This document shows, in pieces, positions 53,611 through 64,000 of a stretch of DNA of 64,000 nt. Position numbers and translations under genes: made by a program. How positions within the stretch are numbered: the first letter of the stretch is position 1; each line of letters begins with the position of its first letter. Under the pieces are notes generated by a model. The model had not been told where the DNA came from. It ran no database searches and saw nothing but the letters and a program-made list of their open reading frames with translations. Source of the DNA: Bacilli bacterium (GTDB lineage: Bacteria > Bacillota_I > Bacilli_A > RF39 > UBA660). The stretch is from positions 62,001 through 126,000 of the forward strand of contig JAFXZC010000006.1 in assembly GCA_017541445.1 (NCBI GenBank). Reading direction: 5' to 3'.

Positions 53611-53632
53611 AAGGGATGATTTCTCATCCCTT
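53611..53632 (-). terminator. Terminator of the F1-like ATPase operon
   Basis: Perfect nine-base inverted repeat AAGGGATGA/TCATCCCTT (53611-53619 with 53624-53632) followed by TTAATG on the minus strand; it includes the TGA stop of the last gene and marks the end of the operon. Confidence 0.7.
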
Positions 53633-54160
53633 GCCTTCTTTTTTCTTAATAAACTTATTTCTCTTAAGTACATTTAATAAACTATTTAAAAATATATAAG
53701 TAGCATATAAGAATATGAATATACATAACATAATAAATAATACTACAACATACCAGCTACTAGATATTTCTACTATATATGAGTAAAAAATATTTTTAAA
53801 ATATAACATAATAAATATTAATATAGCATTACTTATAGAAAATAATACTCTAAAAATATTACCACTAAAACTACATAAATTAAACATAATAACTGGTATT
53901 AAAAATAATACTACAGAATATAATGTATATGTCGTTATAAAAAACGACTCAATAATTAAGAAATAATAAATAAATAAAAATGATAATGCAAGAATATCCA
54001 AAAATTTTAAATTCATAAATAAACCATAAAATGAAATATTACTATTAGTTATTGTCCTTTTGGATAATAACCATAACACTACCATTAATAATATAGATAA
54101 AATAGGAAATATAATTAAATATGGTAATAAATAACTTAATTGATAAATTACCTCATTCAT
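53624..54160 (-). CDS. Polytopic membrane protein ending the F1-like ATPase operon
   Basis: Protein of 178 residues with about five membrane helices and a basic end (KRNKFIKKKEGKG). It starts 3 bases after the epsilon-like gene, with GAAGGTGTATAATTT in front, and is the last gene before the terminator. It is shorter than F-type subunit a (about 220-270 residues), and I cannot find the conserved helix with the essential Arg (SLRLFGN-type); FSGNIFRVLFS is the nearest string and does not align convincingly. It may be the membrane stator or anchor of this machine, or a new component. Confidence 0.7.
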   Translation of the reverse strand: MNEVIYQLSYLLPYLIIFPILSILLMVVLWLLSKRTITNSNISFYGLFMNLKFLDILALSFLFIYYFLIIESFFITTYTLYSVVLFLIPVIMFNLCSFSGNIFRVLFSISNAILIFIMLYFKNIFYSYIVEISSSWYVVVLFIMLCIFIFLYATYIFLNSLLNVLKRNKFIKKKEGKG

Positions 54161-54163
54161 AAA

Positions 54164-54403
54164 TTATACACCTTCTATCAATACATCAAAATTATTATTA
54201 TTAAACAAATAGTAGGCTTTAATATCATTATAAGTAAACTTATCTTCCTTAGTTTCTATTTCAAAAAAACCTTCTATCTCACCTACTACAGATAAATAAT
54301 CTTTTAAAATAAGTAAATTATAATCTTTACTCTTTATTCTTATAGCAGTTACCTCTTCTATTTCTTCCATACCATTTTTAAATGTAAATATTTTAACTAT
54401 CAT
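54164..54403 (-). CDS. Epsilon-like subunit, beta-sandwich only
   Basis: Protein of 79 residues with alternating beta-strand residues (MIVKIFTFKNGMEEIEEV at the start), in the position of epsilon in F-type operons and overlapping the beta gene by 4 bases. Typical epsilon is about 135 residues with a C-terminal two-helix regulatory arm, which is missing here. The match is based mainly on position, size and predicted fold; identity is weak. Its role would be at the gamma foot, facing the c-ring. Confidence 0.6.
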   Translation of the reverse strand: MIVKIFTFKNGMEEIEEVTAIRIKSKDYNLLILKDYLSVVGEIEGFFEIETKEDKFTYNDIKAYYLFNNNNFDVLIEGV

Positions 54404-60791: not shown

Positions 60792-60804
60792 AACCTCACT
60801 CTCC

Positions 60805-63800
60805 CTACTTATTGACCGTTAGAATCGTTTCAACATTCGCGGTGACGACGCCATCATCATCCAGGAATTCCATAACAACTCTATATGTATTTTTTGGAAT
60901 TCTAACACCAACATTTAAAACGAAGTATGAAATATTATCATCTGTAATCCAATTTATACTAACTTCATCTAAGTTTTTAAATAAGTTTATACCAGTACTC
61001 TTTTCAGTATATAATGAAGCCCTAACTTTTCTTGCATTATGACTTCCATATAAATCGAAGAATGAAATTCTAACTTTCTTACTATTTGAATCTTCTTCAA
61101 TACTTGCAGATACACCTGAATAAGATAATGAACCAGTCAAGTTAAATTCTGTAGTAATAAAATCTTCTTCATAAACACCATCATTATTTCTATCAGCATA
61201 GAACACAACTTTAGCAGAACAAATATCAGTCGAACTACAATTAATATTATTACCTAATTTCTCTCTATAACTAGGTCCTTCCATTGTAGATATAGAAATC
61301 AATTCGCTTTGTCCATTTTTAATCAAATATACAAAGAAATGATATCTTTTTCTAGCATCAGCATCAGCACGTCTATCTGAAAGACCACTTTGAACCAATT
61401 CATTATTACCTGAATAGAATCCTTTGTATCCACCCATTGAACCAGCTTGATCCAACAATGTAACTAATAATTGAACATTTGAAGTTTGAGTATCTTCAAC
61501 TAGTTTAACATTTACGAATGGTCTAGATAATATGAAATCAGTAACATTCGCATTTTTAACAGCATTCTTAGATAATACATGTTCATGATTTTCAGAGTCA
61601 TTATAATATGGATAAGCAAATACAACATAATTATCATCTGTAGTCATAGAATTATCAGGAGTAGTAGGATGTTCAGGATCACCTTGTATTCCACCATATG
61701 TAGGTGTTATATCAATATAAGTGACATTATCAGAACTCTTAAAGATTGTATTATCGGTAGTAGCATATGCATATTTAACCACTTCAATACCGTCAGCACG
61801 ATTTCCATTTTCATCAATATAAGTAGTTCCTGGTACTCTTCTATAAACTTCAAATTTAATACCATCAAAGCCTTCCAAATATTGTAAATTATAAGTAACT
61901 TTTAAGAATCTATCATAATAATCATGAGATACACCCTCACCATAATCATAACTTGCTTTCATAGCAGTTATACCAGGGTTATCAGATGTTTCAATAGTGT
62001 AACTTGGATATGTTCTATCAGCATCATACCAAGAACCATAAATTGATTCATCAAGGAAATTATAATCCAAATAATCAAAATCTTTTGGAGAAGCACCATC
62101 TTCAAATGAATACTTAAATATTATTCTATAAATAGCATCAACTTTGTCTAAACCATCAATAGTTATATTATTTAGTATTGTATTTTCACCATTTTCAGAT
62201 ACAAATAATTCATTTAACTCATTTACTTTAAATGAAGTATAAGCACATTCAAATCTAAAATCATATAAACTACAATTTTCATTTACATTTGAGAAACCTT
62301 CACCTTCTACATATTTTTGAAGATAAACATAAGTTGTAATTGGTTTAGATGTACTAATAATAGGCTTAAATTTAAATCCACCTATTCCATTATTTACATC
62401 AGAAGCGCTCAATGAAAGTGATGGTGTATCACCAATAAAATAATAATTACATGATGCACCAGGAATTAAATCACCAGTACTAGAAGAAATAACCTTACAA
62501 TCACTTTGTTTATCAATAGTATAAGAGCCAAGTTTCTTAGGCATTAAAGCAACTGATACATTATTACTATTTTTACATACTAATCCTCTTGTAGTAACAC
62601 TACAATTATTGAATTTTAAAGGATCTACACTAGTATCGTATTTAGAAGTAACTTGTAGATAATTTTGAGCACCTATTCCAATACTATAATCAATATCACC
62701 ATAGTACTTACCTCTATCAAATACATAACTTACAACACCATTATCATTTGCGGTTAAAGTATAACCTTCAGTTGGACTTATTTCGTTATCAAATCCAGCA
62801 ATTTGAGTATCATACAATAATCTAATAGATAAAGTTATATCAACTTTTTTATTAGTATCATTTTCACTTATTAATTCACCAATATCAGAATGATAAATCT
62901 TAAAGCCTGAATAATTAATTCCATTTACAGAAATTCTTTCAATATCATTTCTAGTCTTATATAAAGTAACTGTTTTATCTGGAAAACCAGTTCTTGCACC
63001 AGTAAATTTCAATTCGTAAACAACAACTTTATCAGAATACCAATAACTATCATTTGCAGCAGATGTTAATAATACACTCAAATAATTTCTAGTACCTGAA
63101 TGATGTAATGTATATCTAGGAGTATAATCAACAAGACTTGTAATTGATTCATTATCAAAAATACTATCAAAATACCAGCCATCAAACATCGAATAAGTTG
63201 TTATAGGACTAATTTGTGGATTACTATAGTTAACTTCTCTTAATTGAACTTTATAATATAATACTGGATATCCATTTTTCGTTTTATTAAAATCACCATT
63301 TGTTGTATAAACAGTACCTGTAGCATGACGTTCTCCATCAAATGAAATACAATTTTCTGTTTCAGCACCATTTATCTTACATAATGCAGTAACTTCTTCA
63401 GAAGTAATACCATTAGAAGTAATTCTATAATATAAAGATTGCTTTCCATTATCAACATAGATAGCTTCGTCAACATCCATAATGTCATATCCAAAAGTAA
63501 CACCATCTGCATCACGTTTTGACAAATAAGCATATACAACAGGCATTTGTTTAGGAGGATTTTGAACATCTGTAGGAATAGCATCTAATACTTGTTCCTC
63601 ATTTTGTCTTCTAATAGTCATTTGAATATTAAAGTTAAAATATCCACCTCTATAATAATGTAATTTATTTTGTAATTCTTCACTAGTTAAATCATCAAAT
63701 AAATATGAAATACAACCAGTTGAGCCATCAATCATATTATTATTTATTAAATTATATGTTCCAACTGTTCCATTCTTAGTATATGTTCCTAATAATTGAT

Positions 63801-64000
63801 TTTGATCATCATGAACAAGCTCTAATTTAATTTGAGTTATATCATCAAGAGATATACCATCAACACTTGGACATATCTTATATCCAATTACAGTTCCTTT
63901 ATTTAAACCATCATTACCATTACTCTTAATTTCTTCAATAAGAGCTCTACTTTGTGGAGTAACATCACCAACTGAAGAAACATTAACATTGTTAGAACTA
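60805..64000 (-). CDS. Large repetitive surface protein, first visible gene of the ATPase operon (partial)
   Basis: The frame is open to the window edge: reading on past the internal ATG at 63735 gives at least 88 more residues (ending at the edge in SSVGDVTPQSRALIEE) without a stop, so the true start lies beyond 64000. At least 1,064 residues remain, with many beta-sandwich-like repeats separated by Asp/Gly/Asn loops, few Cys and no membrane helix or sortase motif at the C-terminus (TILTVNK). It is probably exported or anchored through its missing N-terminus, and it precedes the 546-residue protein by 13 bases. Confidence 0.75.
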   Translation of the reverse strand, partial: SSNNVNVSSVGDVTPQSRALIEEIKSNGNDGLNKGTVIGYKICPSVDGISLDDITQIKLELVHDDQNQLLGTYTKNGTVGTYNLINNNMIDGSTGCISYLFDDLTSEELQNKLHYYRGGYFNFNIQMTIRRQNEEQVLDAIPTDVQNPPKQMPVVYAYLSKRDADGVTFGYDIMDVDEAIYVDNGKQSLYYRITSNGITSEEVTALCKINGAETENCISFDGERHATGTVYTTNGDFNKTKNGYPVLYYKVQLREVNYSNPQISPITTYSMFDGWYFDSIFDNESITSLVDYTPRYTLHHSGTRNYLSVLLTSAANDSYWYSDKVVVYELKFTGARTGFPDKTVTLYKTRNDIERISVNGINYSGFKIYHSDIGELISENDTNKKVDITLSIRLLYDTQIAGFDNEISPTEGYTLTANDNGVVSYVFDRGKYYGDIDYSIGIGAQNYLQVTSKYDTSVDPLKFNNCSVTTRGLVCKNSNNVSVALMPKKLGSYTIDKQSDCKVISSSTGDLIPGASCNYYFIGDTPSLSLSASDVNNGIGGFKFKPIISTSKPITTYVYLQKYVEGEGFSNVNENCSLYDFRFECAYTSFKVNELNELFVSENGENTILNNITIDGLDKVDAIYRIIFKYSFEDGASPKDFDYLDYNFLDESIYGSWYDADRTYPSYTIETSDNPGITAMKASYDYGEGVSHDYYDRFLKVTYNLQYLEGFDGIKFEVYRRVPGTTYIDENGNRADGIEVVKYAYATTDNTIFKSSDNVTYIDITPTYGGIQGDPEHPTTPDNSMTTDDNYVVFAYPYYNDSENHEHVLSKNAVKNANVTDFILSRPFVNVKLVEDTQTSNVQLLVTLLDQAGSMGGYKGFYSGNNELVQSGLSDRRADADARKRYHFFVYLIKNGQSELISISTMEGPSYREKLGNNINCSSTDICSAKVVFYADRNNDGVYEEDFITTEFNLTGSLSYSGVSASIEEDSNSKKVRISFFDLYGSHNARKVRASLYTEKSTGINLFKNLDEVSINWITDDNISYFVLNVGVRIPKNTYRVVMEFLDDDGVVTANVETILTVNK

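Follow-up and report, generated by a model that had tools for sequence, protein, structure and literature searches.

A stretch at positions 53624-64000 of the 64,000-nucleotide window analysed here (by which we mean the whole segment of Bacilli contig DNA) encodes, entirely on the minus strand, the core subunits of an F1-type ATPase together with predicted surface proteins. Our preferred reading, to which we assign a probability of roughly 60%, is that this operon uses the energy of ATP hydrolysis to act mechanically on predicted surface proteins of very large size and does not serve ATP synthesis or ion pumping. An initial annotation of this DNA had proposed an F1-type operon joined to surface proteins and laid out in the classic F-operon core order, and both proposals hold: each gene was recovered where it had been placed, neighbouring genes are separated by gaps or overlaps of 27 bases or fewer, and the order c-b-alpha-gamma-beta-epsilon is present. 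From the upstream end, the features are as follows.

60805-63999, minus strand: BIG, a large predicted surface protein, 1064 amino acids (aa) up to the window end, its 5' part lying outside
59151-60791, minus strand: SP1, a single-pass predicted surface protein of 546 aa
58893-59138, minus strand: c-like ring subunit that has lost the ion-binding glutamate, its start set at the conserved ATG
58165-58893, minus strand: b-delta-like peripheral stalk, from a predicted model
56542-58137, minus strand: alpha, with the arginine finger SVSRLGG (Pfam PF00006, 1.5e-71)
55764-56552, minus strand: gamma, the central shaft (Pfam PF00231, 4.8e-21)
54400-55758, minus strand: beta, with GGAGVGKT and GERSREG intact (Pfam PF00006, 1.1e-69)
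54164-54403, minus strand: epsilon-like protein of 79 aa, assigned by position and a pattern read by eye
53624-54160, minus strand: TM4, a polytopic protein with five hydrophobic segments, a candidate membrane stator or ring partner
53611-53632, reported by the scan on the plus strand, palindromic and readable on the minus strand: terminator-like hairpin at the operon end

The c gene, listed as an open reading frame at 58893-59147 that starts from a TTG at 59147, matches Pfam PF00137 (3.4e-7); the b-like, epsilon-like, polytopic and surface proteins of the window match no Pfam family above its cut-off. The single terminator claimed for the operon is present as the hairpin, but a scan of 51500-64000 gave one hairpin against 1.5 expected in shuffled sequence, so that this element is weak by itself. 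The host had been described as wall-bearing, in agreement with the D-Ala-D-Ala carboxypeptidase and LytR_cpsA_psr protein encoded in the window. RF39-type gut Bacilli have reduced genomes according to PMC12306168 (a PubMed Central, or PMC, record), the available portion of which makes no mention of the present operon.

The operon belongs to a broad family. A protein-database search with gamma gave 759 matches at E<=1e-3, of which the best 120 were listed and the weaker ones may include ordinary gammas; a contig search with an alignment of 27 gammas yielded at least 80 loci beyond the window (numbered L001 onwards). These are titled Bacilli, Mollicutes/Tenericutes, Erysipelotrichaceae, Lachnospiraceae and Clostridia and are nearly all from metagenome-assembled genomes (MAGs); the record for L064, under the title Lachnospiraceae bacterium G11, bears no MAG label. 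The attribution to a Bacilli lineage thus stands in that Bacilli are among the carriers, but many others are titled Lachnospiraceae or Clostridia. The gamma profile scores eight ordinary gammas at 46 bits or less and unsplit family gammas at about 210 bits or more, the only family members below that value being the split gamma frames of L077 and L079. Viral contigs searched with alpha gave no related locus.

Layout was counted over 81 loci (the window and 80 others), restricted in each case to those reaching far enough. The common arrangement is BIG, SP1, c, b, alpha, gamma, beta, epsilon and TM4, followed by P240 (about 240 aa) and GIANT. SP1 lies directly upstream of c in 54/61 loci, and a large frame occupies the place of BIG in 44/48 (42 found by script, plus L048 and L063, whose upstream frames are about 1,750 aa, that of L063 without a BIG-profile score), which answers the initial annotation's question of how often the surface-protein neighbours are kept. 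P240 follows TM4 in 46 of 71 loci and GIANT in 40 of 59. Because this gene order recurs in dozens of loci, it is not a product of chance. The suggestion that two surface proteins had taken the place of subunit a proved right about the absence of a, but a simple swap is not borne out, since P240 and GIANT also belong to the family. The near relatives L002, L003 and L007, like the window, have no downstream P240-GIANT pair; in L002 both genes stand upstream of BIG, and those of the window may therefore lie beyond BIG, past base 64000.

One clade, comprising L016, L024, L026, L030, L034, L038 and relatives, has a split operon, with gamma placed after TM4 and a separate locus for the surface genes; six of its loci, together with L065, make up the seven that lack SP1 beside c. 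A protein of about 250 aa that precedes c in this clade was considered as P240 and dropped, as it did not reach E 1e-5. Downstream in L016 are several short proteins with an AYFSAS-type N-terminus, which may resemble TasA/camelysin. An extra open frame separates gamma from beta in L064 (10761-11024, 87 aa) and in L049 and L067 (255-256 aa).

The catalytic apparatus of the motor is retained across the family. In rows of at least 400 aa, beta carries GGAGVGKT in 76/76 and GERxREG in 76/76, and alpha carries SVSR in 72/72, as the initial annotation had read from the window for the catalytic residues of beta and the arginine finger of alpha. Family gamma matches ordinary gamma with 99.3% probability in profile comparison (E 2.6e-20). 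The window alpha (531 aa) is extended at its N-terminus by about 90 residues, with alignment to canonical alpha starting at residue 94, and falls under every cut-off among the 25 of 36 NCBIfam families listed; the window beta scores slightly above the ordinary-beta cut-off (468.7 vs 462.85 bits). Alpha is longer, at 604-1,090 aa, in 11 loci (L007, L011, L014, L015, L017, L021, L023, L025, L029, L060 and L062), and in L011, L015 and L023 the added length is an acidic, repeat-rich C-terminal tail that is probably disordered.

Examination of the ring subunit points away from ion transport. At the ion-binding column of the second transmembrane helix (TMH2), ordinary c subunits have glutamate in 9/9 cases, and all 58 aligned family members have threonine, alanine, serine, methionine or valine. 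The cytoplasmic GRNP loop and the C-terminal [FY][FY]NP motif are invariant in the same 58 copies. Reading c in six frames in 12 further loci gave no acid in the printed TMH2; another 11 loci have no c, and as these either show no b or begin inside it, their contigs seem not to reach the gene.

Subunit a (PF00119) is missing from the window operon and was not found in 27 of 33 carrier genomes (9/15 of a first set, 18/18 of a second), the window's own genome lying outside this sample. As the carriers are mostly MAGs of untold completeness, single absences are weak; the pattern is consistent. The six carriers that do have subunit a possess larger genomes, of 2.1-3.1 Mb. In five of these (G005-G009) a separate ordinary operon with a, alpha and beta was read directly, and in G013 the ordinary atp operon is cut where the contig ends inside alpha; the second, ordinary operon that the initial annotation had asked for therefore exists in 5/6. 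Elsewhere the family pair stands by itself: in eight of the first 15 carriers (G001-G004, G011, G012, G014 and G015), family alpha and beta are the sole PF00006 matches above cut-off. In G010 there are A/V-type ATPases instead, and in G006 one occurs alongside the F1Fo. Taken together, the loss of the c glutamate, the absence of subunit a and the second ordinary operon in five of six a-bearing carriers make a role of the family as ATP synthase or ion pump very unlikely.

The stalk protein was modelled with AlphaFold2 at a mean predicted local distance difference test score (pLDDT) of 85.4. The model has a transmembrane (TM) segment continuing into a long helix (residues 2-63), a helical bundle (90-193) and four strands (197-240), and resembles the delta, OSCP and b-delta chains of ATP synthase; the best 33 Foldseek rows are all ATP synthase entries, at weak E values of 0.05 to 4.7. 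Profile comparison of the stalk with ordinary b and delta was not significant. We predict from the model that the protein is a b-delta fusion.

The family encodes four predicted surface proteins, P240, SP1, BIG and GIANT, which range from 240 to about 3,000 aa. SP1 comprises a TM helix (6-35), a well-predicted beta domain (40-212), a disordered glycine-rich linker and two FN3-like domains (322-545); for the beta domain no fold was identified in the structure match list, which was filled by the FN3 part. The window BIG has weak BLAST matches to those of L001 (23% identity, E 2e-6) and L002 (27%, 7e-6), and an N-terminal TM segment is predicted in 16 of 20 complete BIG relatives (1546-1837 aa). 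GIANT of G001, at 3042 aa, has TM segments at each end, and the six GIANT C-termini fetched (L160, L162, L164, L167, L169 and L170) each have a predicted TM segment. Collagen-like Gly-X-Y stretches occur in the BIG proteins of eight loci titled Lachnospiraceae or Clostridiales, where the L048 and L063 entries of the collagen list are SP1 proteins mistaken for BIG. In comparisons of N-terminal profiles, SP1 matches BIG at 98.8%, BIG matches GIANT at 97.5% and SP1 matches GIANT at 94.4%; by this measure the N-terminal parts of the three proteins are relatives.

The motor and surface modules are retained jointly, even in genomes where they are separated. Among 288 genomes of one order, gamma is present in 21 and SP1 in 22; 21 have both, one has SP1 alone and none has gamma alone (Fisher 5e-31, kinship ignored). 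In seven of the 21 (G070, G236, G835, G897, G912, G960 and G998) the two genes are on different contigs, which in some may reflect merely a contig break. In the clade with gamma after TM4, SP1 is present in 9/10 genomes, and BIG, SP1 and P240 stand together in the seven split-operon regions fetched; in that of L178 the N-terminus of BIG is cut, and the 5'-open frame of 1675 aa is identified as BIG by size and place only. In the order to which Lachnospiraceae bacterium G11 belongs, two of 392 genomes have gamma, G11 among them. From its presence in 21/288 and 2/392 genomes we conclude that the system is accessory and patchy.

How might such an assembly work? We propose that ATP hydrolysis by alpha3beta3 would turn gamma, epsilon and an ion-blind c ring, while the predicted b-delta stalk would hold alpha3beta3 still during rotation and TM4 would replace subunit a as the stalk's membrane partner. 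The membrane-proximal parts of P240, SP1, BIG and GIANT could bind on or near the ring's outer face, such that each turn would twist or cycle a surface tower made up of beta and FN3 segments, joined in some species by collagen-like ones. The output might be crawling, shearing or release of a bound ligand. In its boldest form, this proposal would define a third class of rotary surface machine, in which F1 spins an ion-blind c ring that turns giant collagen-, FN3- and beta-rich towers in wall-bearing gut bacteria; we regard that fuller picture as tentative, and doubtful as it stands.

Several observations weigh against the conversion of ATP hydrolysis into surface work. The stalk reaches a Foldseek E of 0.05 at best, with V-ATPase and FliH chains among the best VIA rows, and the epsilon-like protein has no significant profile match to ordinary epsilon. 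Surface location is predicted from TM anchors, and contact of the surface proteins with the ring is presumed. P240 matches SP1 moderately (84.2%) and BIG and GIANT weakly (47.4% and 10.8%). The association of motor and surface genes has exceptions: L065 is without SP1 beside c, G1034 has the motor and no SP1 match, and G882 has a full-length SP1 (E 5e-120) with neither a PF00006 match nor subunit a, and may represent either a MAG with parts missing or a surface set whose motor has been lost. Finally, the c subunit of L011 has an aspartate one column from the lost site, and an acid appears near the outer end of helix 1 in at most five of 58 c copies per column.

The nearest working parallels are found in mycoplasmas. 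The G1-ATPase of Mycoplasma mobile (type 2) acts in gliding (PMC11864180), the type 3 ATPase is required for MIB-MIP function (PMC12994834), and such F1-like machines have been termed 'mycoplasma-specific systems' (PMC11864180). The family resembles both in working idea and scores below the cut-offs that define either. Like type 2, it has F1-like alpha, beta and gamma that are tied to surface proteins and, here very probably, do not serve an ATP synthase; unlike type 2, it has a c subunit, a stalk protein with a TM helix, other surface proteins and a wall-bearing host. The family alpha keeps an N-terminal region that aligns with canonical alpha, whereas G1-alpha is described as being without helix H1 (PMC11864180), and the family beta is without the long N-terminal extension. 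The type 2 cluster has seven genes including one for a 12-TM protein, with no c ring reported (PMC3369863, PMC11864180), in contrast to the window cluster, which has c and no such gene. GliD of type 2 has itself been proposed to originate from a b-delta fusion (PMC11864180). On the NCBIfam type 2 models MMOB1660/MMOB1670, alpha scores 381 against a cut-off of 600 bits and beta 386.7 against 850. In type 3, as in the family, an F1-like ATPase and surface proteins are encoded by a single operon. Its seven genes include one for a 12-TM protein and one for an 87-kDa protein that carries two TM segments at its C-terminus; homologues of known Fo subunits or of delta are not reported (PMC3369863, PMC12994834), whereas the family has c. 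The family also stays below the type 3 models MSC_0618/0619 (beta 418.5/570, alpha 309.4/520 bits). Within the open-access PMC literature, bioRxiv lying beyond that scope, the texts available held no description of such a family outside mycoplasmas.

Kinship was addressed with beta and alpha trees of 28 of the 81 family rows, eight type 3, three mycoplasma type 1, five ordinary and five outgroup rows (V-type and FliI, the FliI label resting on match strength and neighbours), and with a joined alpha+beta tree that added 12 ordinary operons and had no outgroup; type 2 sequences were left out of all three. The 28 family rows form one clade with 100/100 support in both single-gene trees and lie on one side of a long branch in every tree. 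The beta tree places the family beside type 3 (96/89, with a long-branch warning), the alpha tree does not resolve its placement relative to type 3, and the joined tree groups the two with a Shimodaira-Hasegawa-like approximate likelihood ratio (SH-aLRT) support of 99.7, although an approximately unbiased (AU) test did not reject the alternative of type 3 with mycoplasma type 1 (p 0.197). Type 3 is thus possibly nearest to the family in the alpha+beta tree. The phylogeny called for by the initial annotation accordingly separates the family from F1Fo and, with the absence of a in 27/33 carriers, upholds its claim of a distinct F1 device; alpha and beta grouping inside F1Fo as a genome's only synthase, with subunit a elsewhere, which the annotation had held to be fatal to its idea, was looked for and not found in the carriers tested. 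With F1Fo the family shares the core order, the catalytic residues and gamma; it differs in having no subunit a, no ion-binding glutamate in c, a predicted b-delta fusion, a shortened epsilon-like protein, partner surface proteins and its own alpha/beta clade.

These comparisons bear directly on an alternative drawn by analogy with MIB-MIP, in which the motor would reset a surface binding device, ATP being used to force ligand off FN3-like surface proteins with no spinning tower. The type 3 layout, which likewise joins an F1-like ATPase and surface proteins in one operon (PMC12994834), and the fibronectin-like FN3 pair at the end of SP1 are both in keeping with such a device. Pfam, however, shows no protease domain in the surface proteins scanned, and no type 3 membrane or surface part matches a family part in the comparison made, in which MIB and MIP were not included. 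None of nine family profiles reaches 2% probability against type 3 proteins 1, 2 and 5 (picked by length and place, with 3, 4 and 4 rows; BIG and GIANT compared by their N-terminal parts), and homology of type 3 parts beyond alpha and beta was rejected except for gamma, at 77%. We consider a resetting device unlikely.

In an equally unlikely alternative, the giant surface proteins would depend on the motor for their export or assembly, as on a FliI-like loading or secretion motor, and not for their later movement. F1-like hexamers serve export in flagella, and here the operon is shared with very large predicted surface proteins. Yet alpha and beta lie far under the cut-offs for flagellar and type III export ATPases (FliI/SctN), the best being beta at 217.3 vs 619.1 bits (TIGR03496), and a Pfam scan recognised no export gate in the operon. 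The N-terminal anchors on SP1, on complete GIANT and on 16/20 complete BIG would fit ordinary Sec export, and the retained c subunit and stalk fit rotation better. N-type F1Fo is an F-type paralogue found beside the ordinary F1Fo in some genomes; its cut-offs are missed as well (TIGR03305/03324: beta 412.1 vs 752, alpha 357.1 vs 750.5 bits).

A third alternative, which we judge improbable, is that the complex still pumps ions or makes ATP by way of an ion site that escaped recognition, TM4 being a divergent subunit a. The presence of c, a stalk-like protein, alpha, beta and gamma, the polytopic nature of TM4 and the few displaced acids in c, that of L011 included, could be read in its favour. 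Against this, the ion-binding column has an acid in 0/58 aligned c, five larger-genome carriers retain a separate F1Fo with alpha and beta, and TM4 was rejected as subunit a, its profile match being 0.9% and its consensus having no arginine. The match of TM4 to ordinary b in profile comparison is 46.7%. That the locus is a decaying atp operon lying beside surface genes by chance, as its patchy distribution might suggest, can be dismissed: it is contradicted by catalytic residues kept over deep divergence, an invariant c loop, a conserved gene order and co-occurrence even across contigs.

Through this family an F1-like, surface-linked ATPase is placed in Bacilli and Lachnospiraceae, with a c subunit and a stalk protein anchored by a TM helix, both of which are reportedly missing from the mycoplasma clusters. 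In the boldest form of our proposal, the machine would be the first surface rotor in bacteria to be powered by ATP directly via a c ring, and it would be a sister, with stalk and ring, to the motors of mycoplasma gliding and antibody stripping. If the operon does drive surface proteins mechanically, two questions would become testable: by what route F1 torque passes through a membrane in the absence of ions, and by what steps ATP synthases turned into mechanical surface machines. Genomes whose only PF00006 pair belongs to the family may meanwhile be wrongly called ATP-synthase positive.

Several other genes in the window also encode proteins with recognisable domains. Directly behind the hairpin lies PROP (51966-53537), whose product is single-pass and in part beta-propeller-like (PF16755 at 2.2e-6, slightly below the family cut-off). 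It was rejected as an operon member, sitting behind the hairpin with a promoter-like match between; such matches are no commoner than in shuffled sequence. Further away are two adjacent cadherin-like domain proteins, one with a dockerin type I domain (22020-25720), a protein that combines a zinc ribbon with a region of BspA-type leucine-rich repeats (46529-48430), and a radical SAM/SPASM protein that may be a peptide-modifying enzyme (44780-46522).

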